From: Micromonospora cabrerizensis
GTDB lineage: Bacteria > Actinomycetota > Actinomycetes > Mycobacteriales > Micromonosporaceae
Assembly: GCF_022230955.1 (NCBI RefSeq)
Contig: NZ_JAKKFI010000054.1
Span: 1-64,000, forward strand
Length of the DNA: 64,000 nucleotides
Reading direction: 5' to 3'
The position numbers were made by a program, and so were the translations under genes. The notes beneath the pieces are model-generated. The model saw only the letters and a program-made list of their open reading frames with translations, was not told the DNA's origin and searched no databases. Positions 2 to 37,187 of this stretch are shown in pieces. How positions within the stretch are numbered: position 1 is the first letter of the stretch; the number at the start of each line of letters is the position of its first letter.

Positions 2-7897
<7,896 letters not shown>

Positions 7898-18745: not shown

Positions 18746-18753
18746 CCCCTAGC
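18746..18753. promoter_or_regulatory. CCCCTAGC element upstream of the carboxylase gene
   Basis: CCCCTAGC 119 bases upstream of the carboxylase start, in the 190-base gap before the MocR regulator stop. Same octamer as at 12,792 (reverse) and 13,191. Confidence 0.4.
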
Positions 18754-18817
18754 TTGGCCTGGGACGCGAGCCCGCCCAGGGTGACGCCGCCGGCACGACA
18801 GGGGTCACCGGACGCGC

Positions 18818-20284: not shown

Positions 20285-20556
20285 GTGGTCCGCTCCGGCG
20301 TAGTCGAAGTGGTATGGACAGCGCGATCTGTGCTTGAGGAAAGTGTTGGCCGGGCGCGCAACCGCCCAGCGGTCGGCAAATCAGGGTGTACGTTCCGAGT
20401 TGTCCAATATGGACCTCACTAACGTCCCTGGTGCCGGCGCGAGGGCGGTCGTGTGAGTCCTTTTGTGCGGGGGGGAAAGTCCGATCTGCCGTGTCACGCG
20501 GTGGGGTCAGCGCCAACGGTGGCGCGGAAATCGGGCTGCTCAGAGGGGGTTTCGCA
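20285..20556. promoter_or_regulatory. Divergent promoter region between MocR and the biosynthetic operon
   Basis: 272 bases, less GC-rich than its surroundings. Contents: direct repeats AAGTGGT at 20,283-20,289 and 20,307-20,313 (24 bases apart, overlapping the MocR start); TATGGAC at 20,313-20,319 and again at 20,408-20,414; palindrome GTCCA-ATA-TGGAC at 20,402-20,414; and AGAGGGGG at 20,542-20,549, the ribosome site of the next gene. MocR regulators typically bind direct repeats, so the AAGTGGT pair is the better operator candidate. Confidence 0.5.
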
Positions 20557-22119
20557 GTGTCCTCATTGTCAACCAAGACCGCCACGTGGCCCATTCGGTC
20601 GCATTCTGTGGCGATGCGACCTACGCCACTGGCCAACTCAATTCCAATAGAAGTGACGTCCGTCACACTGTCGGCAATCGATCCGTTGTCGCTCTACACG
20701 GCACTCTCCGAATGTCGTCCGCACGACGATCTGTATCTCTTCGAAAGCCTAGACGGCCCGGCTCAGGACCGCTATGCGGCGGCAGTCGGCTGGGACGCCC
20801 TCGCCGAGTTGCGGTTCATCGCCGACCGGCTTGAGGTGATCTGCGACGGTCCGCTGGGCGACGCCCTGGCGGCCGTGCTCACCGCGGTCCTGGGCGAACC
20901 GGTCCGGCACCGCGCGCCGGAGCGGGTCTGGACGGTCTCCGGGCCACCCGAGGTGTGGTCGGCGGTCCGGGCCGTGCAGCGGGCGTTCGCGGTGCGGACC
21001 ACCGCCCCCGCCGACAGCTTCGCCTTCGGCTTCCTCACCACCCTGGCGTACGAGGCCGCGCGGGACATGGACGAGCTCTCCGTCGACCGGGTGGTCGACG
21101 ACATCCCGCGCTGCACCCTCGTGCTGTTCCGGCACACCGTCTGGTGGGACCTGCGCGCCGGCACCGTGCGGCAGCTGACCGCCGGCGGCCCGCACCTGCC
21201 TCCGGACAGCGGCGCGCCCCGGCTGCCGGAGCTTCTCGCCGGCCTGCCCGACGACCACGCCGCGGTGCCGGTCGCCCCACCGCCCAGCCTGGTGCGGGAC
21301 AACGTCGACGAGGAGACGTTCGCCGCCCGGGTCAAGCAGTGCCTGCGGCACATCGAGGTGGGGGACAGCTACCAGATCCAGATCGGCCACCGGATCGACG
21401 TGGAGACGGCTCTCACCCCGCTGGAGGTCTACCGGCGGCTGCGGCACCGCAACCCGTCGCCGTACATGTACCTGACGCCCTGGGCCGGCGGCACCGTCAT
21501 CGGGGCGAGCCCCGAGCTGTTCCTCCGCGTCGAGCAGGGCCGGCTGTCCATGCGCCCCATCGCGGGCACCGCCGCCCGCAGCGCCGACCCGGAGACCGAC
21601 CGCCGGCTGGTGGCCGAGCTGACGGCCAGCGAGAAGGAACGGGCCGAGCACGTCATGCTGGTCGACCTCTGCCGCAACGACATCGGTCGGGTCTGCGTGC
21701 CGGGCACGCTCAGCGTGGACGCGATGTTCGACGTCGAGCCGTTCGCGTACGTGCACCACCTGGTGTCCACCGTCTCCGGGCAGCTCGCCGACGACGCCGA
21801 CGTCTGGGCGGCGATCTGCGCCGCCTTCCCGGCCGGCACCATGACCGGCGCGCCGAAGCTGCGGTCCATGGAGATCATCGACGGGTTGGAGGACGAGCCC
21901 CGGGGCGTCTACGCCGGCTCGATCGGCCTGGTCGACGTCCGCGGGTACGCGGTGCTGGCGCTCTGCATCCGCACCGCCGTGCACGACGGTCGCCGCTACC
22001 GCACCCAGGCCTCCGCCGGGGTCGTGGCCGACTCCACACCCGGCGCCGAGTGGCGGGAGACGCTGGCCAAGATGAGCGCCACCTTCTGGGCCCTGACCGG
22101 TACGGAGCTGCTGCCGTGA
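20557..22119 (+). CDS. Chorismate-utilising synthase component I (TrpE/PabB family), probably C2-amination type
   Basis: 520 residues from GTG 20,557, with AGAGGGGG seven bases upstream; an internal ATG at 20,614 is the alternative. It aminates chorismate with ammonia from the glutaminase encoded next. Family blocks: LYLFES near the N-terminus, RPIAGTAAR (~333), DLCRNDIGRV and FPAGTMTGAPK. The residue after PI is Ala. Aminodeoxychorismate synthases (PabB) have a nucleophilic Lys there (PIKGT), whereas anthranilate and isochorismate-type enzymes have Ala. That favours anthranilate or 2-amino-2-deoxyisochorismate as product. The first ~60 codons contain more A/T-ending codons than the rest. First gene of a coupled run (GTGA overlap with the next). 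Confidence 0.88.
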   Translation: MSSLSTKTATWPIRSHSVAMRPTPLANSIPIEVTSVTLSAIDPLSLYTALSECRPHDDLYLFESLDGPAQDRYAAAVGWDALAELRFIADRLEVICDGPLGDALAAVLTAVLGEPVRHRAPERVWTVSGPPEVWSAVRAVQRAFAVRTTAPADSFAFGFLTTLAYEAARDMDELSVDRVVDDIPRCTLVLFRHTVWWDLRAGTVRQLTAGGPHLPPDSGAPRLPELLAGLPDDHAAVPVAPPPSLVRDNVDEETFAARVKQCLRHIEVGDSYQIQIGHRIDVETALTPLEVYRRLRHRNPSPYMYLTPWAGGTVIGASPELFLRVEQGRLSMRPIAGTAARSADPETDRRLVAELTASEKERAEHVMLVDLCRNDIGRVCVPGTLSVDAMFDVEPFAYVHHLVSTVSGQLADDADVWAAICAAFPAGTMTGAPKLRSMEIIDGLEDEPRGVYAGSIGLVDVRGYAVLALCIRTAVHDGRRYRTQASAGVVADSTPGAEWRETLAKMSATFWALTGTELLP

Positions 22120-22727
22120 AGGTCCTGCTCGTCGACGCGTACGACAGTTTCACCCACATCATCGACCAGTACCTGCGGACCCTCGGCGCGCGGACCGTGG
22201 TGGTCCGTTCCCGGTCGCGGTCCAGCCAGCAGCTCGCCGCCCTGCGGCCCGACGCGGTGGTGCTCGGCCCCGGGCCGGGGCACCCCGCCGAGTCCGGGCA
22301 CGTGGAGCTGGTGCACGCCTTCGCCGGCCAGGTGCCGCTGCTCGGCGTCTGCCTCGGCCACCAGGCGATCGGCCTCGCCTACGGCGGCACGATCGCCGTC
22401 GCCCGGCACCTGATGCACGGCAAGACCAGCGTGGTCACCCACGACGGCCGAGGTGTCTTCGCCGGCGCGCCCGCCCCGCTCACCGTCACCCGCTACCACT
22501 CGCTCATCGTCGCCGAGCCGGCCCCGCCGGCTCTGGAGATCACCGCGCGCTCGTCCGACGACGGCTACGTGATGGGGGTACGACACCTCACCCTGCCGGT
22601 GGAGGGGGTGCAGTTCCACCCGGAGAGCGTCCTCACCGAGGACGGGCTGCGCCTGTTCGACAACTTCCTGGGCCGCGCGTCGGTGGCACTGCCGACCGCC
22701 GGTGCCGGGGCGGTGGGATCGCCATGA
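22116..22727 (+). CDS. Glutamine amidotransferase, component II (TrpG/PabA family)
   Basis: 203 residues, class I glutaminase that feeds ammonia to component I. The catalytic triad is complete: Cys ~78 in GVCLGHQAIG, His and Glu ~167/169 in QFHPES. The oxyanion strand GPGPGHP is also present. The unfused arrangement is that of trpE/trpG or pabB/pabA pairs and differs from the fused ADC synthases common in actinomycete p-aminophenylalanine clusters. GTG 22,116 overlaps the previous stop and the stop overlaps the next ATG. Confidence 0.93.
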   Translation: MKVLLVDAYDSFTHIIDQYLRTLGARTVVVRSRSRSSQQLAALRPDAVVLGPGPGHPAESGHVELVHAFAGQVPLLGVCLGHQAIGLAYGGTIAVARHLMHGKTSVVTHDGRGVFAGAPAPLTVTRYHSLIVAEPAPPALEITARSSDDGYVMGVRHLTLPVEGVQFHPESVLTEDGLRLFDNFLGRASVALPTAGAGAVGSP

Positions 22728-23434
22728 CCGACCAGTCCATCCCGCTCGCCGTGGTCACCGGCGCGGCGGGCGGCATCGGCCGGGCCGTGACCGTCGCGCT
22801 GACCGCGTCCGGGCACCGGGTGCTCGGCGTCGACGTCGACCCGGCCGGCGACCCGGCGGCGTACGCCTCGCTGGTCGCCGACGTGGCCGTGCCGGAGCAG
22901 GTGGAGCAGCTCTTCGCGCGGATCCACGAGCGACACGGGCTGCCCACGGTGCTGGTGAACAACGCCGGCGTCTACCACGCCCGGGACTTCCTCGACTACG
23001 ACCCGAAGACGTACGCGCAGGTGCTCGACGTCAACCTGGGCGCCGCGTTCTTCTGCACCCAGGCGTTCGCCCGTGCCCTGGTCGACGCCGGCCGGCCCGG
23101 CACGGTGGTCAACGTGGCCTCGATCAGCGGGCAGTCCGGCAGCCCGGACGCGGCGTACGGGGCGTCGAAGGGTGCGTGCATCGCGCTCACCCGCAGCCTC
23201 GGCCGGGCGCTCGCCGAGCACCGCATCCGGGTCAACGCGGTCGCTCCCGGCCTGGTCGACACCCCGATGGCCGCCCGGATCCCGGTCGAGCGCCGGGACG
23301 ACTACCGGGCCCGGATCCCGGTCGGCCGGTTCGGCTCGCCGGCCGAGATCGCCGCGGCCGTCGCCTGGTTGGCGGGCCCGGAGAGCAGCTACGTCACCGC
23401 CTCGGTACTGGACGTCAACGGTGGCCTGCACTGA
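22724..23434 (+). CDS. Short-chain dehydrogenase/reductase
   Basis: 236 residues, classical SDR. NAD(P) motif TGAAGGIG at 12-19, NNAG (~84) and the catalytic Ser-Tyr-Lys at about 133, 145 and 149 (VASISG, YGASKG). It ends in the usual SVLDVNGG. An Asp at the end of beta-2 (GVDVD) hints at NAD rather than NADP. In chorismate-derived pathways SDRs oxidise dihydro-dihydroxy- or dihydro-hydroxyanthranilate rings, and BacC oxidises the anticapsin precursor; either role would fit, but neither is provable here. ATG 22,724 is coupled to the preceding gene. The next gene starts after a 61-base gap. Confidence 0.9.
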   Translation: MTDQSIPLAVVTGAAGGIGRAVTVALTASGHRVLGVDVDPAGDPAAYASLVADVAVPEQVEQLFARIHERHGLPTVLVNNAGVYHARDFLDYDPKTYAQVLDVNLGAAFFCTQAFARALVDAGRPGTVVNVASISGQSGSPDAAYGASKGACIALTRSLGRALAEHRIRVNAVAPGLVDTPMAARIPVERRDDYRARIPVGRFGSPAEIAAAVAWLAGPESSYVTASVLDVNGGLH

Positions 23435-23495
23435 CCTGCGCCACGGCCGACCGCGACAGCACCGCAGCCGGCTCACCCCTGGAGAGGATCCGACC

Positions 23496-24920
23496 ATGTG
23501 GCTTCCGACCACCGGCCCGGCGGCGGACTTCGCCGCCGACTACCTGGCCCTGCACCAGGCCTTCTACGACCGCACCCTCGATCACGCCGACCTGGAGGCC
23601 TGGCGGGCACGACAGTTGCGCACGGTGCTCGACCAGGTGTCCACCGGCTCGCCGTTCTACGCCCGTCACCTGGCCGACGTCGACCTCGCCACGATCACCC
23701 CGGCGACCCTCGACCGGCTGCCCTTCACCACGAAGACGCACCTGCGCCAGGAGATGCTCGACGTGCTGAGCCGGCCGCTGACCGAGGGGGTCTTCTTCTA
23801 CGAGACGACCGGCACGACCGGCCGGGCGACCCCGTGCCCCCGCGACGGCCGGGAGGTGGTGGCCAGCAACGCCCACGTCACCGAGTCCTGGGCGTCGATC
23901 TTCCGGCACCACTTCGGCGACCACGCGCCCCGGATCGGTCTGATGGGGCCGACCGAGGTGCACTCCTTCGGCGACACCCTCGGTGACGTCGCGCGCAACG
24001 TCGGCTCGCTGAACGCGAAGATCTGGCCGTACTCGCCGGTGATCGGGTTCGCCAAGGCGTTGCAACTCATGAAGGACCTTGAGCTGGAGGTCGTCTGCTG
24101 CACGCCGGGCGTGGCCATGATGCTCGCCAAGGCGGCCGAGCACTACGGCTACCGGCTGCGCGAGGACTTCGCCGTCAAGCTGCTCTTCGTCACCGGCGAG
24201 ATGTGCACCCCGGCGCTGGCCCGAAACCTGGAGTCCGTCTGGGGCGCGGACGTCTACAACATCCTGTACGGCTCGCAGGAGGCGTTCGTCATCGCCACCG
24301 CCTGCCGCAACAAGCGGATGCACCTCTCCCAGACCAACTACCTCGTCGAGGTGGTGGACCCGGAGACCGGGGTGTCACACGGCTCGCGCGGCAGCGGGGA
24401 ACTCACCGTCACCATGCTGGTCGACGGGGTGAAGCCGCTGGTCCGTTACCGCACGGGCGACGCGGTGATCATCGAGTCGTCGGACTGCGACTGCGAGATG
24501 CCCGGCGACCTGGTGCAGATCGTCGGCCGCACCCTGGACCGGATCGAGCTGGGCGGTCGACGCCTCACCGCCGGGCAGATCGAGATGGCCGTCCTGGCCG
24601 GGGTCGTCGGCTCGGGCGGGTACCAGGTGGTGATCGACCACGACCCGGGCAGCGGCGGCGACCGGCTGACGGTCCGCCTGGAACTGCTCAAGGACCTCGT
24701 CGACGACCCCGCCGGGGTTGCCGACGGGGTCCGGCAACGGGCCGCCGCCGCGCTCGGCGTACCGGTCGAGGTGGAGCTGACCGACGGGCTCGACCCGATC
24801 GTGAGCACCGGCGCCTTCGTGAGTTGGAAGGCCGCCCGGATCGTCGACCGGCGGGTCGAGGTCGACCACGAGACCCGGGTGGCGCAGCGGATGGCGGGCA
24901 ACCGTGGCTACACCACCTGA
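23496..24920 (+). CDS. Phenylacetate-CoA ligase-like (PaaK family) adenylate-forming enzyme
   Basis: 474 residues from ATG 23,496, with GGAGAGG eight bases upstream. The phosphate-loop motif YETTGTTGR (~102-110), the YGSQEA aromatic/adenine block (~265) and the VRYRTGD hinge region (~317) mark an ANL-superfamily ligase of the PaaK branch. It activates a carboxylic acid as acyl-AMP and usually passes it to CoA. The likely substrate is an aromatic or dihydroaromatic acid made in this cluster, such as anthranilate; that is inference. No carrier protein lies nearby, so transfer to CoA or directly to an amine is plausible. It overlaps the next gene by 17 bases. Confidence 0.85.
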   Translation: MWLPTTGPAADFAADYLALHQAFYDRTLDHADLEAWRARQLRTVLDQVSTGSPFYARHLADVDLATITPATLDRLPFTTKTHLRQEMLDVLSRPLTEGVFFYETTGTTGRATPCPRDGREVVASNAHVTESWASIFRHHFGDHAPRIGLMGPTEVHSFGDTLGDVARNVGSLNAKIWPYSPVIGFAKALQLMKDLELEVVCCTPGVAMMLAKAAEHYGYRLREDFAVKLLFVTGEMCTPALARNLESVWGADVYNILYGSQEAFVIATACRNKRMHLSQTNYLVEVVDPETGVSHGSRGSGELTVTMLVDGVKPLVRYRTGDAVIIESSDCDCEMPGDLVQIVGRTLDRIELGGRRLTAGQIEMAVLAGVVGSGGYQVVIDHDPGSGGDRLTVRLELLKDLVDDPAGVADGVRQRAAAALGVPVEVELTDGLDPIVSTGAFVSWKAARIVDRRVEVDHETRVAQRMAGNRGYTT

Positions 24921-25548
24921 GACGGCCGCCGACGAGTGGGTGCCGGCGCTGCCCGGCCCGCTCGCCGAGGCGTACGGGCAGCGGTGGCGCGCCGTGGTGG
25001 ACCGGTGGGCGAGCCGGCCCGGCACCACGTTGGCCACCCTCGGCCCGGCCGGGACGTCCAGCCACCTGACGGCGGCCTTCCTCGCCGAGCGGCACGGGCT
25101 GCGCGTGGAGCTGTCCGACACCTTCGACGCGGTGCTCGCGGCGTTGGTGGACCGCCGGGTCGACCAGGCCCTCGTGCCGAGCGCCTACCAGGGGCTCACG
25201 CGCTTCCACTGGCACCGCGACCTGCGGCTGGACGCGTACTTCGCGCAGGCCACCCCGGAGTACGGCATCGCGGCCGACCCGGACCGCGAGCCGGCCGCCG
25301 GTCAGCTCGCGGTGGCCGCGCTCTGGGAGGTCCGGCGGCTCTTCGCCGACCTGGCGCCACCCGCCCTGCGGGACCGCCCGATGCGGTGGGTCGACGCCGA
25401 CTCCACCCAGCACGCCGCCGAGATCGTCGCCGCCGGCGGCGCCGACCTGGCGGTGACCAACGCGCCCGGGGTCCACCGCCACGCGTTGCGGTGGGTGGCC
25501 CGCCGCCCGGGCGCCGAGATCGTGTGGACCCTGTTCGGCCGCCGCTGA
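24904..25548 (+). CDS. BacA-like protein (prephenate dehydratase fold; non-aromatising prephenate decarboxylase family)
   Basis: 214 residues from GTG 24,904 (GTG 24,940 is also possible). The PheA-like motif TLGPAGTSS at ~45-53 opens the fold, followed by LSDTFDAVL, VPSAYQGLTRFHWHRDLRL and a C-terminal VTNAPGVHRH ... WTLFGRR. From memory these blocks align with Bacillus BacA (DTF, VPHAYDGIKHFYMRPDLQL, TNE, SWSLFG) rather than with PheA. BacA-type enzymes decarboxylate prephenate without aromatising, giving dihydro-hydroxyphenylpyruvate. Relatives are AerD and SalX. There is no ACT domain, so it is not a housekeeping prephenate dehydratase. The chorismate mutase encoded at 33,814 could make the substrate. 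Confidence 0.72.
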   Translation: MATPPETAADEWVPALPGPLAEAYGQRWRAVVDRWASRPGTTLATLGPAGTSSHLTAAFLAERHGLRVELSDTFDAVLAALVDRRVDQALVPSAYQGLTRFHWHRDLRLDAYFAQATPEYGIAADPDREPAAGQLAVAALWEVRRLFADLAPPALRDRPMRWVDADSTQHAAEIVAAGGADLAVTNAPGVHRHALRWVARRPGAEIVWTLFGRR

Positions 25549-25598
25549 GCCACCGTCGGCTCTCCTGCCCCGACACCGAGAGAACCGGAGTGATCGTC

Positions 25599-26888
25599 GT
25601 GTCCCGACGAACGTTGCTGCACCGCGCCACGGTCCAGGAAGGACTGGGGGTGGCCTCCCGAGCGCGCCACAGCGTCCTGCTCGACGGCGAGCGGATCGTC
25701 GCGGTCCTGCCCGAGGCGCAGGCCCCGCTGCACGACCCGGACGTGGACGTCCTCGACCTCGACGGCCGGACGGTCATGCCGGGCATGACGCTGGGCCACA
25801 CCCACATCGCGTACCTGAACGTGCTCGACGGTCGGGAGATGCTCTTCAAGTACACGATCCCGGAGGTCACCCTCGGCGCCGCCGCCAACGCCGCCGACAT
25901 GCTCCGGCTGGGCTACACCGCCTTCGTCGGGGCCGGCTCGGTCTCCGGCATCGACATGGCCCTGCGCCGGGCGATCGACGCCGGTCGGCTGCCCGGCCCC
26001 CGGATCACCCCGTGCAGCCGGGACCTGATGGTGTCCGGCCCGCCGGAGCGCCGCAACCCGGCCGTCAAGCAACGCATCCCGAGCGACCTGATGCGGCTGG
26101 CCGACACCCCGGAAGAGCTGATCGAGTACGTCGACACCGAGGTCGCGCAGGGCGCGGAGATCATCAAGGTCTTCTCCACCGGCGATGACACCTTCCCCAA
26201 CGGTCGATCGCACGAGCTGCTCTTCACCGCCGAGGAGCTGGTGATCGCGGCCCGGGCGGCGCACGAGCGGGGCGTCCGGATCCGGGCGCACTCGCGGGGG
26301 CTGGGCGGCATCCGCAACGCCATCGCCGCCGGCGTCGACGTGATCGACCACGCCACGTACGCCGACGACGCGGCCCTGGAGGCGATCGCCGAGCGGGGCA
26401 TCTTCGTGGTGCCGAGCCTGCACCAGCCGCACCGGCTGCTGACCACCGGCACCCGGTACGGCAAGACCCCGGAATACCTGGAGACCCTCGAATTCCAGGC
26501 CGAGGTCGAGAACACCCTGCGCATCCTGCCGCTGATGGTGCAGATGGGCATCCCGATCGTTGCCGGCGACGACTTCGGCTTCGCGTGGACCCCGCACGGC
26601 CGCTACGCCGAGGAGCTGGAGACGTACGTGACCATGGCCGGCATTCCCGCCCCGGTGGTGCTGACCTGGGCCACCGCCAACGGCGCGCGGTTGGCCGGTC
26701 GGGGCGACGACGCGGGCACGGTGCAGCCGGGGCGGCTGGCCGACCTGGTGGTCACCGACGGGGACCCGGCCGAGGACATCACCGTGCTGGGCCGACCGGA
26801 GGCGATCGAGCTGGTGCTGCTCGGCGGTCGGGTGGTCGCCGGGGACGCCAGCCGTTACCGTGCCGGGCAGCCGGCGGGAGTGGCGTGA
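25599..26888 (+). CDS. Metal-dependent amidohydrolase (imidazolonepropionase/prolidase-like)
   Basis: 429 residues from GTG 25,599, with GGAG eight bases upstream; GTG 25,590 lies on top of that site. The metal ligands of the superfamily are visible: HTH (~66/68), the Lys of EIIKVF, the His of RAHSRG, the His of DHATY and the Asp of GDDFG. N- and C-terminal beta-sandwich segments (VLLDGERIVAV ... RLADLVV) complete the fold. It resembles Xaa-Pro dipeptidase-type members, so it may hydrolyse a peptide or amide bond, perhaps releasing or trimming a peptide product or opening a cyclic amide. The stop overlaps the next ATG (TGATG). Confidence 0.85.
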   Translation: MSRRTLLHRATVQEGLGVASRARHSVLLDGERIVAVLPEAQAPLHDPDVDVLDLDGRTVMPGMTLGHTHIAYLNVLDGREMLFKYTIPEVTLGAAANAADMLRLGYTAFVGAGSVSGIDMALRRAIDAGRLPGPRITPCSRDLMVSGPPERRNPAVKQRIPSDLMRLADTPEELIEYVDTEVAQGAEIIKVFSTGDDTFPNGRSHELLFTAEELVIAARAAHERGVRIRAHSRGLGGIRNAIAAGVDVIDHATYADDAALEAIAERGIFVVPSLHQPHRLLTTGTRYGKTPEYLETLEFQAEVENTLRILPLMVQMGIPIVAGDDFGFAWTPHGRYAEELETYVTMAGIPAPVVLTWATANGARLAGRGDDAGTVQPGRLADLVVTDGDPAEDITVLGRPEAIELVLLGGRVVAGDASRYRAGQPAGVA

Positions 26889-28177
26889 TGCGCCGCAGCG
26901 TGCCGGTCGTCCCGCTGCTGGCCGTGGGCGCCTTCGCCATCGGCACCGACACCTTCGTCGTTGCCGGTGTGCTCCCCGAGGTGGCCCGTACGCTGCGCGT
27001 CAGCGTCGCCTCCGCCGGCTGGGTGAGCGCCGTCTTCGCCCTGGCGTACGCGGTGGCCGCCCCGGTGCTCGGCGCCCTGACCGGCCGGCTGGAGCGGCGT
27101 ACCGTGCTGGTGGTCTCGCTGGTTGGGTTCACCGTGGGCAACGTCGCCTCCGCGCTGGCGCCCGACCTGCCGCTGCTGCTGGCGGCCCGTGTCCTCACGG
27201 CGGTCAGCGCCGCGCTCTACATCCCCGCCGCCACCGCCTCGGCGGCCGCCATGGCCCCGCCGGAACGACGCGGCCGGGCCATGGCGGTCGTGCTCGGCGG
27301 CCTCTCCGCGGCCACCGTGGCCGGGGTGCCGTTCGGCACCTGGCTCGCCGCCGACCTCCAGTGGCGCGCCACCTTCTGGCTGCTGGCCGCCATCGGCGCC
27401 GCCTGCGCGGTCGCGGTGACCGTCGGCCTGCCGAGGCTGGCCCTGCCGCCCGGCCCGTCGCTGGCCATCCGGCTCGCCCCGGCACGTGACCGCCGGGTCG
27501 GGTTGGCCGTGCTCACCACCGCGCTCTTCATGACCGGCGGCTACCTCGCGCTGACGTACGTCGGGGCGCTGCTCGCCCCGGCCACCGAGGGCGACGGAAC
27601 CCTGCTGGCGGTGCTGTTGCTGGTCTTCGGTGTGCCGGCGGTCGCCGGCACCGTGCTCGGCGGACGGGCCACCGACCGGTGGGGCGGCGTGCCGGTGCTG
27701 CTGGTCTCGGTCACCGGGCTGGCCCTGGTGCTGGTCACGCTGCCGCTGACCCGGCAGGCGCTGCTGCCGGCCGCGCTGGCCATGGCCGCCTGGGGCGTCA
27801 CCGCGATGGCCACCCAGCCCGCCCAGCAGCACCGGCTCTTCACGGTCGCGCCCAGTTCCGGGCCGTTGCTGCTCTCCCTCAACTCGTCGGCCACGTTCGT
27901 GGGCATCGCCCTCGGCGGCTTCCTCGGCAACCGGCTGCTGCGACACGGCGGCACGGACGCCCTCGACCTGCTCGGGCCGGTCGGCGCGGCACTCTGCCTG
28001 CTGGCCCTGGGCACCACGCTGCTCGGTGCCCGGGATCGTGCCGAGCGTCGCGCCGACCAGGCACCGAGCGCCGGATTGGCCTCACCGGATCACCCCGGAT
28101 TGGCCACACCCGGTGGTCGTGAGGCTGCGTACGGTCGGTCCGACAATCGGACCCGAACCACGCGAGGATCACGATGA
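26888..28177 (+). CDS. MFS transporter, DHA1-type drug/product exporter
   Basis: 429 residues with about twelve hydrophobic segments and the DHA1 loop motif GALTGRLERRTVLV between the second and third. Related to AraJ/CmlA-type exporters. The ~45-residue hydrophilic tail after ~385 is poorly constrained. Located inside the biosynthetic run and coupled on both sides (TGATG before, ATGA after), so it is the likely exporter of the pathway product or an intermediate. A second, dissimilar MFS gene follows at 30,176. Confidence 0.88.
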   Translation: MRRSVPVVPLLAVGAFAIGTDTFVVAGVLPEVARTLRVSVASAGWVSAVFALAYAVAAPVLGALTGRLERRTVLVVSLVGFTVGNVASALAPDLPLLLAARVLTAVSAALYIPAATASAAAMAPPERRGRAMAVVLGGLSAATVAGVPFGTWLAADLQWRATFWLLAAIGAACAVAVTVGLPRLALPPGPSLAIRLAPARDRRVGLAVLTTALFMTGGYLALTYVGALLAPATEGDGTLLAVLLLVFGVPAVAGTVLGGRATDRWGGVPVLLVSVTGLALVLVTLPLTRQALLPAALAMAAWGVTAMATQPAQQHRLFTVAPSSGPLLLSLNSSATFVGIALGGFLGNRLLRHGGTDALDLLGPVGAALCLLALGTTLLGARDRAERRADQAPSAGLASPDHPGLATPGGREAAYGRSDNRTRTTRGSR

Positions 28178-28953
28178 CCCAGCTCAGCGACGGTGTGGAC
28201 ACCCTCACCGTACGCATCGACGACCGGGTGCTGACCGCAGTGCCGAACTACGTGCTCGGCGTGATCGCCATACCGGCGGTCGAGGTCGCCCCGGCGCCGC
28301 CCGCCGTGTCGGCGCTGCTGACCGCCGCCGAGGACGCGCTGCACGAGGCAGCCCTGGACAAGGCAGCGGTGGCGGAACTGCCGGGCATCGCCGCGTGGCG
28401 GGAGGCGTACCGCGCGGTGGGGGTCAACCCCAACCGGTTCCCGTGCGCCGCCGAGTCCATCGCCCGGCGGGTCGCCAAGGGTGACCGACTGCCCCGGATC
28501 AACGCCCTGGTGGACCTCTGCAACGCGGTGTCGCTCGGTGCGGCGCTGCCGGTGGCCTCGTGCGCGGTCGACGGCCTCGCCGACCTCGTCGTCCGGCCGG
28601 CCGACGGCACCGAGATCTACCTGCCGCTCGGCGCGCCCGAGGCGCCGGAACAGCCCGAGCCGGGCGAGGTCGTCTACGCCGACGCCGACGGGCGGGCCCA
28701 CTCGCGGCGCTGGAACTGGCGGCAGGGCCACCTGGTCCGCACCGATTTGGGCCGGCACCGCCTGCTGCTCACCGTCGAGTCGGCCCACCCCGGCGGCCGG
28801 GTCGACGTGACGGCCGCGCTGGCCCGGCTCGCCGCCGCCCTCGACGAGCTGTCCGCCGCCCCGCGGCAGGAGGCGGTGCTCGACGCCACGACGACCAGCG
28901 CCGTCCTGCGTGTTGCGGGCCCGGTCGGCAGCGACCATGGGAGCCGCTCGTGA
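28174..28953 (+). CDS. Solo B3/4 domain protein (PheRS beta editing-domain homologue, COG3382)
   Basis: 259 residues. The core reads AWREAYRAVGVNPNRFPCAAE, then RRVAKGDRLPRINALVD and SRRWNWRQGH. These are hallmark stretches of the B3/4 fold, which in phenylalanyl-tRNA synthetase beta removes wrongly attached tyrosine from tRNA-Phe. Freestanding copies are known but rarely characterised. Here it sits in a pathway likely to make a phenylalanine- or tyrosine-like amino acid, so clearing tRNA-Phe mischarged with that analogue is an attractive self-protection role. That is inference; a metabolic role is possible. ATG 28,174 overlaps the exporter stop. Confidence 0.88.
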   Translation: MTQLSDGVDTLTVRIDDRVLTAVPNYVLGVIAIPAVEVAPAPPAVSALLTAAEDALHEAALDKAAVAELPGIAAWREAYRAVGVNPNRFPCAAESIARRVAKGDRLPRINALVDLCNAVSLGAALPVASCAVDGLADLVVRPADGTEIYLPLGAPEAPEQPEPGEVVYADADGRAHSRRWNWRQGHLVRTDLGRHRLLLTVESAHPGGRVDVTAALARLAAALDELSAAPRQEAVLDATTTSAVLRVAGPVGSDHGSRS

Positions 28954-30185
28954 ACCGCGCGATCCTGGTGATCTACCGACCGGCGGCCGGCCGGTACGCG
29001 GCCCAGTTCCGCAGCGTGCTCGCCGCCGCCACCGAGCTGGGCGTGGCCACCGTCGTGCTGCTGCCGACCGGGCAACCGGCCGCCGAAGCCGCCGGTCTGC
29101 CCTGCTACCACGCCGACCTCGACGACTCCGAGGCCGTCCGCTCGGCGGTCACGACGATCCTCGCCGCGCACCCGGTGCAGCGCATCTTCCCGCTCTTCGA
29201 GGGCGACGTGCTCACCGCCGCGCGCTGCCGCCGCGACCACGGCATCGCAGGGCTGGACCCGGAGGAGGCGCTGGCCTTCCGGGACAAGAACGTGATGCAC
29301 CGCCGGGCCGTCGAGCTGGGCGTGCCGGTGGCCCGCTCGTGCCGCCCCGAGACGGTGGGCGCGGTCGCCGAGTTCGCCGCCGAGGTGGGCTGGCCGGTGG
29401 TCGTCAAGCCGTACGCCGGCTGGGCCTGCGGCGACACCCACCGGGTGGACTCCGCCGAGGACCTGACCCGGGTCTGGCCGCTGATCGCCGACGACCGGCA
29501 CGACTACCGGGTGGAGGAGTACGTCCGGGGCGCCGAGTACCACGTCGACTCGCTGCTGCGCGACGGCGAGGTGGTCTTCGAGCAGCTGTCCCGCTACACG
29601 TACTCGGTGCTGGAGTTCCGCGACGAGCCCGGCGGGACGGTCTCCCGCAAGCACGACCTGACCCCGGCGGAGCGGCGCATCCTGACCGCCAGCGCCACCG
29701 TGCTGCGCGGCTTCGGGATGCGTACCGGGGTGGCGCACGTGGAGTTCTTCCTCCGCGACGACGGCGAGCTGATCTTCGGCGAGGCGGCCGCCCGGGCCGG
29801 CGGCGGCTCGATCGTCCCCGCCATCCAGGCCGGGCGGGGCATCAACCTGGCGGGGGAGTGGTGCCGGCTGGAGCTGGACCCGGGGCACGTCCCGGCGGCC
29901 AGCCTCGGCCCGGAAATCGGCACCGAGTACCTGTGCTCCGACCGGTACGGCCGGATCACCGCGATCACCACCGCCCAGGAGCTGCGGGCGCTCGACTCGG
30001 TGCTCGACGCGGACGTGTGGAAGACCGTGGGGGACGTGCTCGCCGAGCCGACCGCCTCCAACGACGTGCTCGGCTGGTACGTCTGCGAGGGCCGCGACTT
30101 CGACGACGTCCGCGCCCGGTTCAAGGTCATCCGGGACGCCTTCGAGGTGCTCACCGAGCCAGCCGGTGACCCGTCATGTGGCTGA
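28950..30185 (+). CDS. ATP-grasp carboxylate-amine ligase (BacD-like L-amino acid ligase type)
   Basis: 411 residues from GTG 28,950 (GTGA overlap with the B3/4 gene). Conserved ATP-grasp blocks: FRDKNVMHRRA (~112), PVVVKPYAGWACGD (~150), EEYVRGAEYHVDS (~190) and the metal-binding GELIFGEAAARAGGGS (~275). Enzymes of this branch join a carboxylate, via an acyl phosphate, to an amine; BacD makes the Ala-anticapsin dipeptide. Together with the exporters and the amidohydrolase this suggests a short peptide product. Substrates cannot be read from the sequence. The last ~10 bases overlap the next gene. Confidence 0.88.
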   Translation: MNRAILVIYRPAAGRYAAQFRSVLAAATELGVATVVLLPTGQPAAEAAGLPCYHADLDDSEAVRSAVTTILAAHPVQRIFPLFEGDVLTAARCRRDHGIAGLDPEEALAFRDKNVMHRRAVELGVPVARSCRPETVGAVAEFAAEVGWPVVVKPYAGWACGDTHRVDSAEDLTRVWPLIADDRHDYRVEEYVRGAEYHVDSLLRDGEVVFEQLSRYTYSVLEFRDEPGGTVSRKHDLTPAERRILTASATVLRGFGMRTGVAHVEFFLRDDGELIFGEAAARAGGGSIVPAIQAGRGINLAGEWCRLELDPGHVPAASLGPEIGTEYLCSDRYGRITAITTAQELRALDSVLDADVWKTVGDVLAEPTASNDVLGWYVCEGRDFDDVRARFKVIRDAFEVLTEPAGDPSCG

Positions 30186-31396
30186 GCCGGTTCCGGGCCC
30201 TGCCGCGACCCCTGCGGATGCTGGTCTACGCCTCCTTCATCAACCGGGCCGGGATGTTCGTCTTCCCGCTGCTCGCGGTCTACCTGGTGCAGAGCCGGCA
30301 CCTCAGCACCGGCGAGGCGGGTGTGCTGATCTCGGTGGGCAGCACCGGCCTGCTGGCCGGCAGCCTGCTCAGCGGCCCGGTCTGCGCCCGGGCCGGCCGG
30401 CGCGCCGCGCTGGTGACGAGCCTGCTGCTCAACGCGGTCGGCTACCTGGGCCTCGCCCTGCTCAACGGCCCGACCTGGACGTACGCGGTGCTGCTCTTCG
30501 TCGCGCTGGTCGGGATGGGGATGTTCGCCCCGGCGGCGAACACGCTGATCGCCGACCTGACCCAACCCGAGCAGCGCCCCTTCGCGTACACGGTCAGCTA
30601 CCTCGCCAACAATCTCGGCATGGGCGTCGGCCCGCTGCTCGGCGGGTTCGCGGCGGCCTACTCCTACCAGCTGATGTTCGCCGGCAACATCCTGCTCGGT
30701 CTGCTGGCGGCGGCCACCATCTGGCTCTTCGTGCCGGCGGACACCCGGCGGGTGCCGGCGGCCCGGCCGGCCGGCACCACCCGTCGGGCCAGCCTGCTGC
30801 GGGACCTCGACGTGGCGGTGCTGGTGGTGGTCTCGATCTGTTTCGTCGCGCCGCTGATCGGCCTGGAATACACGCTGCCCCTCGCGGTCACCACGGTGCT
30901 GCACTCGTCGGTGGCGGTGGTCGGTGCCGTCTACACCATCAACAGCGTGGTCGTGGTCAGTGCCAGCCTGCTGATCGAGAAGCGGATGAAGGCGTACTCG
31001 ACCCGGGCCCTGCTGATCACGGCGGGCCTGCTCTGGTCGACCGGGATGGCCATCCTGGTGTTCGCGTTCTCGCTGCCCGCCGTGCTGCTCTCCACAGTGG
31101 TCTGGACCCTCGGGGAGATCATCGCCTCGGTGGTGATTCCGACCTACATCGCCGACCACGTCCAGGAGCACCGGGTCGGCAGCTTCATGGCGCTGAACGG
31201 TTTCGTGCTCAGCTCCGCCCGCCTGGTCGTGCCGATGGGTCTCGGCTTCGTCTGGCAGGCCGGTGGGCACCGCCCCGTCCTCCTCCTGCTCCTTCTGACC
31301 CCGGTGGTCGGCGTGGTCGCGTTCGCAGTGTTGCGGATCCGACCGGCTGCCCGGCCCGTGCCGACACCCGCCGAGCCGGCCACCGCCAGTCCCTGA
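30176..31396 (+). CDS. MFS transporter, second exporter
   Basis: 406 residues, about twelve membrane segments, signature GPVCARAGRRAALV after segment two and a D-L-T-Q-P-E-Q-R loop mid-N-half. It belongs to a different MFS subgroup from the exporter at 26,888. It overlaps the ATP-grasp gene by ten bases, as BacE follows BacD in bacilysin operons, which supports export of the ligase product. The short hydrophilic C-tail (PVPTPAEPATASP) is typical of actinomycete proteins. Confidence 0.88.
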   Translation: MWLSRFRALPRPLRMLVYASFINRAGMFVFPLLAVYLVQSRHLSTGEAGVLISVGSTGLLAGSLLSGPVCARAGRRAALVTSLLLNAVGYLGLALLNGPTWTYAVLLFVALVGMGMFAPAANTLIADLTQPEQRPFAYTVSYLANNLGMGVGPLLGGFAAAYSYQLMFAGNILLGLLAAATIWLFVPADTRRVPAARPAGTTRRASLLRDLDVAVLVVVSICFVAPLIGLEYTLPLAVTTVLHSSVAVVGAVYTINSVVVVSASLLIEKRMKAYSTRALLITAGLLWSTGMAILVFAFSLPAVLLSTVVWTLGEIIASVVIPTYIADHVQEHRVGSFMALNGFVLSSARLVVPMGLGFVWQAGGHRPVLLLLLLTPVVGVVAFAVLRIRPAARPVPTPAEPATASP

Positions 31397-31417
31397 CACC
31401 CACCCCTGGAAGAGGCC

Positions 31418-32722
31418 ATGACCGCCACGAAGTTCGTGCTGCCCGACAGTGAGATCCCGACGACCTGGTACAACGTGGTCCCCGATCTGCCCAAGGGCCT
31501 GCCCCCGATGCTCCACCCCGGCACCCGCGAACCGATCACGCCAGCCGACCTCGAACCGCTCTTCGCCAGCGGCATGATCGAGCAGGAGTTCTCCACCGAG
31601 CGGGAGGTGGACATCCCCGGGCCGGTGCTCGACATCTACCGGCAGTGGCGGCCCAGCCCGCTCGTGCGGGCCCGCCGCCTGGAGCAGGCCCTCGGCACGC
31701 CGGCCCGGATCTACTTCAAGTACGAGGGGGTCAGCCCGGCCGGCAGCCACAAACCGAACACCGCCGTTCCGCAGGCGTACTACAGCAAGCAGGACGGCGT
31801 GCGGCGGCTGACCACGGAGACCGGCGCCGGCCAGTGGGGCAGCTCGCTGTCGATGGCCTGCGCATACTTCGGCCTCGACTGTGAGGTCTTCATGGTGCGG
31901 GTCAGCTACGACCAGAAGCCGTACCGGCGGGGTCTGATGGAGACGTTCGGGGCGTCGGTCACCGCGAGCCCGAGCGACCGCACCGGGGCGGGACGGGCGG
32001 CCCTCGCCGCCGACCCGGAGTCCAGCGGCAGCCTCGGCCTGGCCATCTCCGAGGCGGTGGAGGCGGCCATGCACAGCGGCGGCGCCGCCAAGTACGCCCT
32101 CGGTTCGGTGCTCAACCTGGTGCTGATGCACCAGACGATCATCGGCCAGGAGGCGCTGCTCCAGTTGGCGATGGCCGACGACTACCCGGACATCGTCATC
32201 GGCGCGGCCGGCGGCGGGTCCAACTTCGCCGGGCTGGCCCTGCCGATCCTGCGCCGACAGTGGGGCGGCGGCCCGACGGTGCGGTTCATCGCGGCGGAGC
32301 CGGCCTCCTGCCCGTCGCTGACCCAGGGCAGTTACGACTACGACTTCGGCGACACCGCCGGGCTGACCCCACTGACCAAGATGCACACCCTGGGCCACGA
32401 CTTCCACCCGCCGGCGATCCACGCCGGCGGGCTGCGCTACCACGGCATGGCGCCGATCGTGAGCGCGCTGCGGGAGATCGACCTGATCGAGGCACGGGCG
32501 GTGCCACAGACCGCCTGCTTCGAGGCGGGCGTGCTGTTCGCCCGCAGCGAGGGGATCGTGCCGGCGCCGGAGTCCACCCACGCGGTCCGGGTGGCGGTGG
32601 ACGAGGCGATCCACTGCCGGGAGACGGGCGAGTCGAAGGCGATCGTCTTCTCCCTGTCCGGGCACGGCCACTTCGACATGCAGGCCTACATCGACTACTT
32701 CGCCGGCAAGCTGACGGACTGA
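31418..32722 (+). CDS. TrpB2-type PLP enzyme (tryptophan synthase beta-like)
   Basis: 434 residues; GGAAGAGG just upstream of ATG. The PLP lysine is ~111 in GSHKPNTA, the catalytic Glu in TETGAGQWG (~133) and the phosphate-binding loop is GAAGGGSN (~268). The extended N-terminus ([13 protein letters not shown]) and length mark the TrpB2 subgroup, which works without TrpA and in archaea uses O-phosphoserine. TrpB-like enzymes add a nucleophile to a PLP-bound aminoacrylate, so here it may form a C-C or C-N bond to build a non-standard amino acid. No trpA, trpC or trpD is present, so simple tryptophan supply is unlikely. A strong hairpin follows. Confidence 0.88.
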
Positions 32723-32726
32723 CCTC

Positions 32727-32762
32727 GCAGGGGGTGGGCGTCGTGCGGCGCCCACCCCCTGC
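32727..32762 (+). terminator. Strong 14-bp hairpin after the TrpB2-like gene
   Basis: Perfect arms GCAGGGGGTGGGCG (32,727-32,740) and CGCCCACCCCCTGC (32,749-32,762), 8-base loop. It begins four bases after the stop. It probably attenuates or ends the first transcript; the next gene starts only 13-20 bases further on, so read-through or a promoter inside the previous gene is needed. Confidence 0.7.
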
Positions 32763-32775
32763 CTCGCACCCGGGG

Positions 32776-33480
32776 GTGAAAGTGCACAGCGAAGCAGGGA
32801 CCATCCTCGCCATCAACGGATCGGAACGGGTCGGTGGCAACACCGACCACGCCATCGCGTACGCGGGTCGGCTGATCGCCGAGCGGGGGGCGGTCCTGCG
32901 CACCATCCAACTACGTGAGCACCGCATCTCGCCGTGCAGCCCGTGCGGCGACTGCAACAGCCGTACGGTGCCCTGCCAGCTGGACGACGACGTCCCCGCC
33001 CTGGTGGAGCAGATGACCAACGCCGACGGGCTGATCTACGCGGCCCCGGTGCACGGCTTCGGCCTGGCCCACCTCATGCAGGTCTTCATCGAGCGCGCCG
33101 GCGTCGGCTACCTGCGGTTCACCCGTCCTCTGGCGGACAAGGTGGGCGGCATCATCGTCACCGGGCGGCGCTACAGCGACTCCTCCGTCCACAACCAGAT
33201 CGTCAACAATCTGCTGCTCAACCGGATGATCCTGGTGGGCAGCGGGTTCCCCGTCCTGCTGCGCAACACCACCGGCACGCCCGGCCTGACCGACCCCGAG
33301 GGCATCGACGCGTTGGAGCGGATGGTGCACCGGATGCTCGACATGGTGCAGCTGCTCAAGCAACACCAGCGGGTCGACGGCGACCCGGTGCTTCCGCGCC
33401 GGGACCGTAACGAACGCGTTCCGCGGCCCCGCCGCACCGAATCCGCCCAGACCAGAGGAGATATCGAGAATGTCCACTGA
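32776..33480 (+). CDS. NADPH-dependent FMN reductase / iron-sulfur flavoprotein-like
   Basis: 234 residues from GTG 32,776; GTG 32,782 is equally possible. Flavodoxin-like fold with the FMN phosphate loop NGSERVGGNT (14-23) and APVHGFG (~96). Four cysteines at 54, 57, 60 and 67 form CX2CX2CX6C, the compact pattern of iron-sulfur flavoproteins (CX2CX2CX4-7C), which bind a [4Fe-4S] cluster. It may act as a reductase on a ring intermediate or deliver electrons or reduced FMN. The C-terminus is rich in Arg/Pro and overlaps the next gene by 11 bases. Confidence 0.85.
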   Translation: MKVHSEAGTILAINGSERVGGNTDHAIAYAGRLIAERGAVLRTIQLREHRISPCSPCGDCNSRTVPCQLDDDVPALVEQMTNADGLIYAAPVHGFGLAHLMQVFIERAGVGYLRFTRPLADKVGGIIVTGRRYSDSSVHNQIVNNLLLNRMILVGSGFPVLLRNTTGTPGLTDPEGIDALERMVHRMLDMVQLLKQHQRVDGDPVLPRRDRNERVPRPRRTESAQTRGDIENVH

Positions 33481-33817
33481 GCAGGTTGCCGCGCCGGTCG
33501 GCATCGACTTCCCGGCCACCGAGTGGGAGAGGTGGGACAAGCCGGGGGCCGAGGGGCGCGTCAAGATCTCGTACGTCGGTGGGCAGCGTCTGCGCCTGCT
33601 GGAGCTGCCGCCCGGCTTCGACGAGCATCACTGGTGCCTGCGGGGGCACACCGGCTACGTCCTGCGGGGCGAGTTCACCATCCACTTCCGGGACCGGTCG
33701 GTGCCGTGCCGCCCCGGCATGGGTTTCGTCATCCCCGACGACGAGGAGCACCGGTCGCAGGGCAGCGACGCCGAGCCCACCGTCGTCTTCGTGGTCGACC
33801 AGGTTCCGCAGCCGTGA
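33470..33817 (+). CDS. Small single-domain cupin
   Basis: 115 residues. Cupin motif 1 (HHWCLRGHTGYVLRGEFTI) and motif 2 (CRPGMGFVIPDDEEHR) are both recognisable, with His/Glu metal ligands partly kept. Bacilysin BacB is a bicupin isomerase acting after BacA; this protein is only one cupin, so an equivalent isomerase role is possible but not shown. The ATG overlaps the reductase stop by 11 bases and its own stop overlaps the chorismate mutase GTG. Confidence 0.82.
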   Translation: MSTEQVAAPVGIDFPATEWERWDKPGAEGRVKISYVGGQRLRLLELPPGFDEHHWCLRGHTGYVLRGEFTIHFRDRSVPCRPGMGFVIPDDEEHRSQGSDAEPTVVFVVDQVPQP

Positions 33818-34182
33818 GCGACCAGCACCGGCTTCCCGCGCCGGCCGGCTCCCCGCCGGCCGGCGCCGCCGACGGCCCGGCCCGGATCGCCGAGCTGCGC
33901 GGTGCCATCGACGGGCTCGACCAGCGGATCATCGCCCTGCTGGCCGAGCGCACCCGGGTGGTGCAGGAACTGACCGCGCACAAGACCGACGAGGCGACCG
34001 TCCGCTCACCCGACCGGGTGCGGCAGGTGCTCGGCCGGGTGCACGACCTGGCCAGCCGACACGGCATGCCGCCCGAGGTGGCGGTCGGCACCTACCGCGC
34101 CCTCATCGACGAGCTGACCCGGATGCAGCTCGACATGCTGGCCGCCCGCCGTGCCGCAGCGCCGCTGGTGGACGAGCGATGA
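33814..34182 (+). CDS. Chorismate mutase, AroQ type
   Basis: 122 residues from GTG 33,814, coupled to the cupin stop. The all-helical AroQ pattern is clear: ELRGAIDGLDQRIIALLAERTRVV, the Lys of AHKTDEATVRSPDR and the final helix TYRALIDELTRMQLD, which together supply the Arg/Lys/Glu-Gln active site. It converts chorismate to prephenate, or an aminodeoxychorismate to the amino-prephenate as PapB does. A ~30-residue Pro/Ala-rich N-terminal extension precedes the domain. Placement with the BacA-like protein suggests that the two act in sequence. UbiD follows with a four-base overlap. Confidence 0.9.
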   Translation: MSDQHRLPAPAGSPPAGAADGPARIAELRGAIDGLDQRIIALLAERTRVVQELTAHKTDEATVRSPDRVRQVLGRVHDLASRHGMPPEVAVGTYRALIDELTRMQLDMLAARRAAAPLVDER

Positions 34183-35636
34183 GCCGCCCGCCGGTCGACC
34201 TGCGGCACGCGCTGGCCACTCTCGACCCGCTGCCCGGCGAGCTGGTCCGGGTCGCCACGGAGCTGCCGGCCCGCTACGGCGTCTCCGCTCACTACGCCCG
34301 GTGGGCCGGTGCGCCCGCCGCCCCGCCCACCGGCGCCGGCCCGGCGGTGCTCTTCGACCGGGTACGCCCCGACCACGGCCCGACCCGAGCGGTGCTGATG
34401 GGCCTGTACGGCACCCGTCGACGCGCCGCCGGCCTGCTCGGCTGCACCCCGGCCGAGTTGCCGCACCGGCTGCTCGACGCGGTGGCCGCGCCCCGCCCGC
34501 CGGTGCCCGCACCCGACCCGGCCCGCTGGCCTCGCGAGACGCTGCCGCTGGACCTGACCGCGCTGCCGGTGCCGGTGCTCACCGACGAGGACGCCGGCCC
34601 CTACCTGACCCTCGGCGCGGTGCTCGCCACCGACCCGGACACCGGGGTCCGCAACCTGTCCGTGCACCGGATGTGCGTGCAGGGCCCGGACACGCTGACC
34701 ATCTGGATGGTGCCCGGCCGGGATCTGGAGCTCGCGCACCAGGCCGCGCTGCGTCGGGGGAACCCGTTGCCGGTGGCCATCCACCTCGGCCTGTGCCCGG
34801 CGGTGCTCCTCTCCTCCTGCTGCCCGACGTCGCTGGTGCCACCCGACGTCGACGAGCTGGCGGTGGCCGGTGCCCTCGCCGGGCAGCCGGTGGAGCTGCT
34901 GCCCTGCCGCACGGTGGACACCGAGTTCATCGCGCACGCCGAGTACGTCATCGAGGGGGAGCTGCTGGCCGACCGGGCCCCGGAGAGCCGGCACGGCACG
35001 GTCGCCACACCCGAGTTCCTCGGCTACCAGGGCCGCGCGCACCCCTCGTTGCCGCTGATCCGGGTCACCGCGATCACCGCCCGGGAGAGCCCGATCCTGC
35101 AGTCGGTGTCCGGCCCCGGGCACGAGCAGTCGGTGCTGCTCGGCTTCGGGATGGAGGCCGCGGTGCTGGACCTGCTGCGCCGTCGGGGCACGCCGGCGCT
35201 GGCCGCGCACTGTCACACCGCGGGTGGCGGTCAGCTCATGGTGGTGCTCCAGTGGCCGCCGAAGCGCGGCCCGGAGGACGACGTGGCGGTACGCGTCGCC
35301 GCCGAGGCGGTGCTGGAGCAGTTCCGGATGGCCAAGCTGGTGCTGTGCGTGGGCGACGACGTCGACATCGAGTCCGACCAGGACCTGTGGTGGGCGATGG
35401 TCACCCGCTTCCAGGCCGACCAGGACCTGCACGTGCTGCCGGACCGGGAGGGTTTTCCCCTCGACCCGAGCCAGCACACCGGCTACTCCCCGTCGCTCTC
35501 GGCCGACGGGCGCACGGCGAAGGCGGTCTTCGACTGCACCGTGCCGTACGCCCAGAGCGCCCGGTTCCAGCGGCCCCGCTTCACCGAGCCGTCACATCCC
35601 GCACCGCGGCGGCCAGCAGCGCCACGCCCTCGGTGA
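34179..35636 (+). CDS. ubiD: UbiD-family prenylated-FMN (de)carboxylase
   Basis: 485 residues. Family blocks: VRNLSVHRM (~154), AEYVIEGEL with the conserved Glu (~260), LPLIRVTAIT and DVDIESDQDLWWAMVTRFQ (~390), which carry the metal- and prFMN-binding Glu/Arg/Asp residues. UbiD enzymes reversibly decarboxylate aromatic or alpha,beta-unsaturated acids using prenylated FMN made by UbiX; no UbiX-like gene is in the window, so cofactor must come from elsewhere. Within this cluster it may remove a ring carboxyl. It is the last gene of the run and its end overlaps the converging MocR gene by 56 bases. Confidence 0.9.
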   Translation: MSRPPVDLRHALATLDPLPGELVRVATELPARYGVSAHYARWAGAPAAPPTGAGPAVLFDRVRPDHGPTRAVLMGLYGTRRRAAGLLGCTPAELPHRLLDAVAAPRPPVPAPDPARWPRETLPLDLTALPVPVLTDEDAGPYLTLGAVLATDPDTGVRNLSVHRMCVQGPDTLTIWMVPGRDLELAHQAALRRGNPLPVAIHLGLCPAVLLSSCCPTSLVPPDVDELAVAGALAGQPVELLPCRTVDTEFIAHAEYVIEGELLADRAPESRHGTVATPEFLGYQGRAHPSLPLIRVTAITARESPILQSVSGPGHEQSVLLGFGMEAAVLDLLRRRGTPALAAHCHTAGGGQLMVVLQWPPKRGPEDDVAVRVAAEAVLEQFRMAKLVLCVGDDVDIESDQDLWWAMVTRFQADQDLHVLPDREGFPLDPSQHTGYSPSLSADGRTAKAVFDCTVPYAQSARFQRPRFTEPSHPAPRRPAAPRPR

Positions 35637-37092: not shown

Positions 37093-37187
37093 CTGCGCAC
37101 GCTCCCCCGATCGACGCCGGTGCCGAGTCTAGTCGCGCCGCCTCGGGCCATCTCCGGTTCGCGCGGCGCGTCGGACCGGCCTGACGC

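Follow-up and report, generated by a model that had tools for sequence, protein, structure and literature searches.

A CtdA-like solo B3/4 gene tied to one type of biosynthetic cluster across three bacterial families, a candidate for immunity by tRNA editing

The closest described counterpart of the protein considered here is CtdA, a stand-alone B3/4 protein that removes canavanine from tRNA-Arg and so protects Pseudomonas canavaninivorans, and a Clostridium homologue with 35% identity likewise stops the accumulation of canavanyl-tRNA, as related in PMC10018355. CtdA guards against a toxic amino acid, a plant compound degraded by the host, and is linked to genes for dealing with this compound; guanidine riboswitches are found in some of the hosts. 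The B3/4 domain is also known as the editing domain of PheRS beta (PheT). Free-standing deacylases may differ in specificity from the synthetase to which they are related, as stated in a review (PMC11415595).

The window analysed here is a stretch of 64,000 nucleotides from Micromonospora cabrerizensis, in which an intact open reading frame runs on the + strand from an ATG at 28174 to a stop at 28953 and encodes 259 amino acids. Residues 74-205 score 49.4 bits with the Pfam model B3_4 (PF03483; cut-off 29.3), and this is the sole domain found in the chain, so that no further PheT domain is present and the protein is a B3/4 domain standing alone outside PheT; no NCBIfam model matched it at 1e-3. 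The genome holds just one other B3_4 match, an 889-aa open frame on contig C10 that is PheT and lies together with the single PheS of the genome, and hence the gene is a solo one, additional to PheRS. An MFS exporter (MFS1, 26888-28177, + strand) lies upstream and an ATP-grasp ligase (28950-30185, + strand) downstream, with the B3/4 start codon overlapping the stop of the preceding gene and its own stop overlapping the start of the following one. The preliminary description, which had placed a solo B3/4 gene between an exporter and a ligase, is thus borne out by the reading frame, by Pfam and by the flanking genes. Orthologues with 76-93% identity occur in 13 further genomes of Micromonospora, and one with 66% in a genome from another genus of the same family.

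Both sequence and fold place the protein beside CtdA. A phmmer search against solved structures returned CtdA (9mkl, E 6.3e-22; 9f7e, E 7.2e-22) and, beyond CtdA, a single chance match (0.23) at E up to 1, with no PheRS among the matches within that limit. An AlphaFold model built from an alignment of 37 sequences (mean pLDDT 90.5) has the predicted fold of CtdA over the whole domain, with a Z of 26.8, 225 residues and an rmsd of 2.4 against 9f7e, whereas the best Z of the model against PheRS beta was 14.4 over 173 to 174 residues. CtdA is the nearest solved relative in sequence and in fold, with PheRS beta a distant second. With CtdA the protein shares its stand-alone form, the same fold over 220-225 residues and an RRWNWRQ stretch, although the identity in the structure comparisons is only 27-29%; with the editing domain of PheT it has a fold core in common, but it is a solo protein and fits CtdA far better. 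BLAST of the protein against the PheT of its own genome gave no match at E 10, and it is 36-45% identical to five other solo B3/4 proteins. Because CtdA is the kin and free-standing deacylases are not bound to the specificity of a synthetase (PMC11415595), 'deacylase' is a fair reading of the protein and 'tRNA-Phe' is not. The preliminary description had called the domain PheRS-type and had given tRNA-Phe as its target; with a nearest relative that acts on tRNA-Arg, neither that label as a guide to the substrate nor that target finds support.

The gene forms part of a cluster bracketed by two MocR-type regulators, MocR1 (18818-20284, - strand) and MocR2 (35581-37092, - strand), the former with a GntR-type DNA-binding domain and an aminotransferase-like domain. 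Between them, and all on the + strand, lie a chorismate-binding enzyme of the TrpE/PabB family (20662-22119, start codon uncertain) and a glutamine amidotransferase that is its likely partner (22116-22727), followed by an accessory block of a short-chain dehydrogenase (SDR, 22724-23434), a PaaK-like adenylating ligase (23496-24920), a 214-aa protein (24904-25548), an amidohydrolase (25590-26888) and MFS1. After B3/4 come the ATP-grasp ligase, whose LAL_C2 domain is of the L-amino acid ligase type, a second MFS exporter (MFS2, 30176-31396), a TrpB-like PLP enzyme of the TrpB2 group (31418-32722; PRK12391, 706 bits against a cut-off of 366), a protein of the NADPH-dependent FMN reductase family (32776-33480), a small cupin (33470-33817), a protein of the chorismate mutase type II family (33814-34182) for which the top NCBIfam hit is an isochorismate lyase model at a score below its cut-off, and a UbiD-family decarboxylase (34179-35636). 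The core comprises the TrpE-like enzyme, the amidotransferase, B3/4, the ATP-grasp ligase, MFS2, the TrpB2-type enzyme, the FMN reductase, the cupin, the chorismate-mutase-like protein and UbiD. Of 14 orthologous loci, 12 contain the SDR, PaaK-like ligase, 214-aa protein and amidohydrolase of the accessory block, and 11 contain MFS1 near its full length. The 214-aa protein has no Pfam or NCBIfam match at 1e-3 and gave just a chance match in a sequence search of solved structures; its GPAGTSS stretch is reminiscent of prephenate dehydratase-like proteins.

The cluster varies among its carriers. Producers L072 and L077 have no trpE-like gene in the locus sequence examined; they are also without an amidotransferase nearby, and in them MocR1 is directly upstream of B3/4. 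In the Paenibacillus producers (L082, L084, L086) a paralogue of ordinary TrpB takes the place of TrpB2, keeping the shared motifs and being shorter just before AGLDYPGVGP than the other TrpB copies of those genomes, and no ATP-grasp match was found in these three loci. This Paenibacillus version of the cluster carries AzlC-AzlD. Bacilysin-type systems also assemble an L-amino acid ligase (ATP-grasp), a cupin, an SDR and an MFS exporter around an amino-acid antimetabolite. The present ligase scores 21.2 bits against the BacD model, whose curated cut-off is 850, and unlike the bacilysin-type systems the cluster core includes TrpE-like, UbiD and TrpB-type enzymes.

As to the product, the motif PIAGT is present in the TrpE-like protein of every producer locus in which the gene was found. 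PabB carries PIKGT and TrpE carries PIAGT, the latter being a sign that C2 is aminated and not that the PabB reaction takes place. The motif therefore favours C2 amination, makes a p-aminophenylalanine route less likely and speaks against PabB-type (4-amino) chemistry. The use of two TrpB types at what seems to be the same step suggests that a beta-substituted alanine is built on an arylamine freed by UbiD, and the cluster genes thus hint at an arylamine-derived alanine; the Phe/Tyr-like product of the preliminary description finds no support in them. Amiclenomycin/stravidin was considered as a product on account of the chorismate-to-amine genes and was set aside, since several clusters lack the accessory block and no finding linked the core with that compound.

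The distribution of the gene follows that of the cluster. Among 300 genomes of the family the cluster clade of B3/4 was found in 15, at 63-100% identity, and the cluster UbiD (E 1e-100) in the same 15, and in the reverse direction none of the 300 has a cluster UbiD without a cluster-clade B3/4. All 14 orthologous loci besides the window carry the core, compared with none of six paralogue loci. A scan with one genome per species gave 38 named loci, of which 6 are from Micromonospora, 23 from Streptomycetaceae and 9 from Paenibacillaceae, with relatives of the cluster-clade protein in Streptomyces, Kitasatospora and Paenibacillus; related loci in these and the other counts are not independent of one another. 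The clade is rare in the genus group of one such Streptomyces, where at E 1e-45 it was found in 5 of 392 genomes. Three of these are producers already known and one is the non-producer L079, while the fifth is a new genome with a cluster that lacks the SDR. A CtdA-like solo B3/4 gene is therefore tied to one cluster type across three bacterial families. The preliminary description had asked whether such genes co-occur with clusters of this kind and had named a random genomic distribution as the outcome that would speak against it, and no such distribution was seen.

Some genomes carry the gene and lack the biosynthesis. In 30 of the 32 loci L059-L090, leaving out L073 and L087 (a 4-kb contig), the genomes of the Streptomyces, Kitasatospora and Paenibacillus relatives were searched for the cluster UbiD, which was found in 20 and was absent from 10 (Streptomyces L066, L075, L079, L080 and L081; Paenibacillaceae L083, L085, L088, L089 and L090), two of the latter having only a 33-35% UbiD-like match elsewhere in the genome. 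In all ten of these non-producers B3/4 and MocR2 are at most about 3.3 kb apart, and both genes are free of internal stops. The five Paenibacillaceae non-producers all have AzlC and AzlD, an amino-acid exporter pair, between B3/4 and MocR2 (assignment checked with Pfam in L082 and L089). L066, from Streptomyces katrae, is a direct case of cluster loss, as an open B3/4 and MocR2 stand at 3147-6820 amid scraps of MocR1, MFS1, ATP-grasp, MFS2 and UbiD. In L089 a chorismate-mutase gene, the only biosynthetic match, is split over two frames between AzlD and MocR2, a single frame change that could be a sequencing error. L079 (9884-14851) has kept B3/4, the ATP-grasp ligase, MFS2 and MocR2, and the protection may therefore come in part from the ligase and exporter, with the ligase perhaps detoxifying the compound on its own account. 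Among 42 rows of the B3/4 tree the state of producer or non-producer changes at least 8 times, gain and loss being counted alike. Pairwise dN/dS, on genes of high GC, was 0.25-0.41 for the B3/4 of L066 against four producers, compared with 0.23 and 0.44 for two producer pairs, and 0.018 between the Paenibacillus non-producer L085 and producer L086. These values indicate that B3/4 stays constrained where the biosynthesis is missing, although with the Streptomyces non-producer falling within the range of the producer pairs they do not point to a stronger constraint there. Retention and constraint of the gene in the absence of the biosynthesis favour protection over a part in the biosynthesis.

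Control of the gene appears to have been kept along with it. Many of the MocR sites in the literature are direct repeats with a spacer (PMC5320631). For the PdxR box PMC4494728 quotes AAAGTGGW(-/T)CTA, which is close to AGTGGTCT, a sequence found at many of the repeat sites described here. Two conserved ATTGG boxes were first seen in the aligned upstream regions of eight Paenibacillaceae loci, and AGTGG and ATTGG stand at the same distance in seven Streptomycetaceae loci. In the window an operator-like direct repeat, ATTGG-N19-ATTGG, lies at 28075-28103 (+ strand) within the 3'-terminal part of the MFS1 frame, with 70 bases separating the repeat from the B3/4 start codon, and a second, AGTGG-N19-AGTGG, at 20284-20312 (+ strand) between MocR1 and the trpE-like gene. 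These are the two matches of the window to AKTGG-N19-AKTGG, for which 0.19 are expected, and 3 of 100 shuffles reach two.

With the pattern A[AGT]TGG-N19-A[AGT]TGG, whose letters were loosened after the first pattern, the 330 bases upstream of B3/4 contain a repeat at 46 of 49 loci (16/17 Micromonosporaceae, 21/23 Streptomycetaceae and 9/9 Paenibacillaceae), and at 32 of 34 outside the 15 discovery loci, compared with none of six paralogue loci and at most 0.08 per group predicted by shuffles. The first, stricter pattern gave 16/17, 20/23 and 8/9 in the same order. The repeat and residue counts omit L053, L055, L056 and L058, which are the same genomes as L037, L038, L039 and L045. The loci that miss the repeat are L045, L063 and L080, the boxes of the last standing 20 bases apart by eye, and a new Streptomyces cluster fetched once the motif was fixed has it 133 bases upstream of the B3/4 match. 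Other 330-base stretches of the same loci contain it in 27 of 2047, 29 of 2527 and 3 of 863 cases, many of which represent the second site, the one before the trpE-like gene of actinobacterial producers. Across the genome there is no enrichment of the strict repeat (4 matches in 6.9 Mb, compared with 17 for a backward control), and so it is position and conservation that carry the argument. The arrangement resembles that of MocR regulons in that regulators with GntR and aminotransferase-like domains adjoin the genes concerned and conserved spaced AGTGG/ATTGG direct repeats lie upstream of the proposed targets. We infer that MocR2 binds the site before B3/4 from the position of the repeat and its likeness to the published MocR box, and MocR2 is preferred as its regulator chiefly because it is the one kept in all ten non-producers. 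The main text of the MocR regulon survey PMC5320631, as far as seen, does not mention tRNA, azl or anthranilate, and the MocR2-B3/4 regulon thus seems to be absent from it. Riboswitch control of B3/4 was considered and rejected, as Rfam gave no riboswitch in 18000-38000 of the window, nor in six of the ten non-producer loci, where two tRNAs were the only matches.

Taken together, we consider it probable, at roughly 0.68, that B3/4 is a dedicated immunity gene whose product strips the amino acid of the cluster from mischarged tRNA, which is controlled by MocR and which non-producers have kept. Where the biosynthesis is missing, the gene is still accompanied by a MocR regulator and in most cases by an operator-like repeat, and this retention, the shared repeat and the presence of B3/4 and UbiD in the same 15 of 300 genomes lend weight to the self-resistance role suggested in the preliminary description. 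The cluster would make from chorismate a non-protein amino acid, which is probably alanine linked to an arylamine, by way of the TrpE-like enzyme, the amidotransferase, the chorismate-mutase-like protein, UbiD and the TrpB-type enzyme. In actinobacteria the ATP-grasp ligase would then couple the product to another amino acid for export by an MFS pump. Some of the free amino acid would be charged onto host tRNA by a host synthetase, and the solo B3/4 protein, on the analogy of its family and fold with CtdA, would hydrolyse the wrong aminoacyl-tRNA in trans. A PLP-binding MocR regulator would sense the amino acid and control B3/4 through the spaced direct repeat, and strains that keep the regulator and the deacylase without the biosynthesis would be protected by them against producers.

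It might be supposed instead that the protein serves for general trans-editing in the manner of CtdA, dealing with canavanine, m-Tyr or similar environmental analogues, and lies in the cluster by chance. Solo B3/4 relatives are indeed common, with some relative at E 1e-5 in 106 of the 300 family genomes and matches in 172 plasmid records, and a transporter gene is directly beside B3/4 in three of five plasmid loci opened (L096, L097, L099 and L100, which are annotated, and L098, which is without annotation); CtdA itself handles canavanine (PMC10018355). The cluster clade, however, tracks the cluster exactly in the 300 genomes and stands apart from the common Micromonospora paralogues in a B3/4 tree of 56 rows (omitting L005, L007, L009, L011, L019, L022, L026, L028, L029, L053-L058 and L087), and Cys130, Pro151, Asn181 and Trp182 are present in 31 of 31 rows of the cluster clade and in none of six paralogue rows, the Asn-Trp pair being common to the cluster clade and CtdA. 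Furthermore, whereas CtdA is associated with the degradation of a plant compound, the cluster clade belongs to a biosynthetic cluster with MocR regulators, and neither canavanine degradation genes nor a guanidine riboswitch was found among the cluster proteins scanned or by Rfam in 18000-38000, the lack of any Rfam riboswitch extending to the six non-producer loci. A general factor is accordingly an improbable explanation.

Within the tree the clade that unites the actinobacterial and Paenibacillus proteins has moderate support (87/92), and an odd letter make-up was flagged in its Paenibacillus rows. The common Micromonospora paralogue (L047-L052, 39-49% identity) lies near a MocR-like gene outside the cluster. 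The plasmid solo B3/4 genes of L096 and L100, in Rhizobium and Streptomyces, adjoin or lie near DMT-family transporters, which suggests other resistance pairs against amino-acid analogues.

We also regard as improbable that the gene gives immunity by another route, with a product that binds or hydrolyses either the free amino acid or its dipeptide, or that exerts a regulatory effect on RNA. The gene distribution would be the same in that case, and the predicted fold also matches, at Z 10.0, a chain of the human 40S ribosome-LARP1-LRRC47 structure, so that proteins with this fold need not all be deacylases; the whole modelled domain nevertheless superposes on a proven deacylase, CtdA, and the cluster clade retains the RRWNWRQ stretch that it has in common with CtdA. 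That B3/4 is instead a biosynthetic enzyme, such as a hydrolase whose substrate is a pathway intermediate in aminoacyl-tRNA or ester form, is very improbable, for while it sits in an operon amid biosynthetic genes in each cluster seen (the loci having been found via B3/4) and no cluster UbiD occurs without it in the 300 genomes, it is open in ten genomes without the cluster UbiD, one of them with scraps of the cluster, and the scan of the cluster proteins recognised none as a tRNA-dependent ligase.

An extra TrpRS or TyrRS was considered as a second means of protection, and no link to the cluster was seen. PF00579 has three matches in the genome itself and 2 to 5 (median 3) in nine known cluster carriers among 101 genomes of the genus, compared with 2 or 3 by eye in most of the others, a weak comparison as G718-G751 were included whatever their cluster state.

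Beyond the cluster itself, the deacylation of tRNA charged with the cluster amino acid by B3/4, the sensing of that amino acid by MocR2 and the resistance of non-producers would together make MocR2 and solo B3/4, joined in Paenibacillus by the amino-acid exporter, a sensor-triggered tRNA-editing resistance module that shields producers and non-producers in Actinomycetota and Bacillota, a wider reading to which we give even odds. Such a module would add a class of resistance that acts on the charged tRNA and not on the drug, the target enzyme or transport alone. A search of the open-access literature found no description of self-resistance by a tRNA deacylase or of this cluster, which is weak evidence of absence. 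MocR2, the repeat and B3/4 provide a marker with which more such clusters can be found. If the immunity reading is true, solo B3/4 deacylases would gain a natural substrate beyond the first one known. The producer would then survive its own antimetabolite by cleaning mischarged tRNA, and the same pair of genes would protect bystanders.
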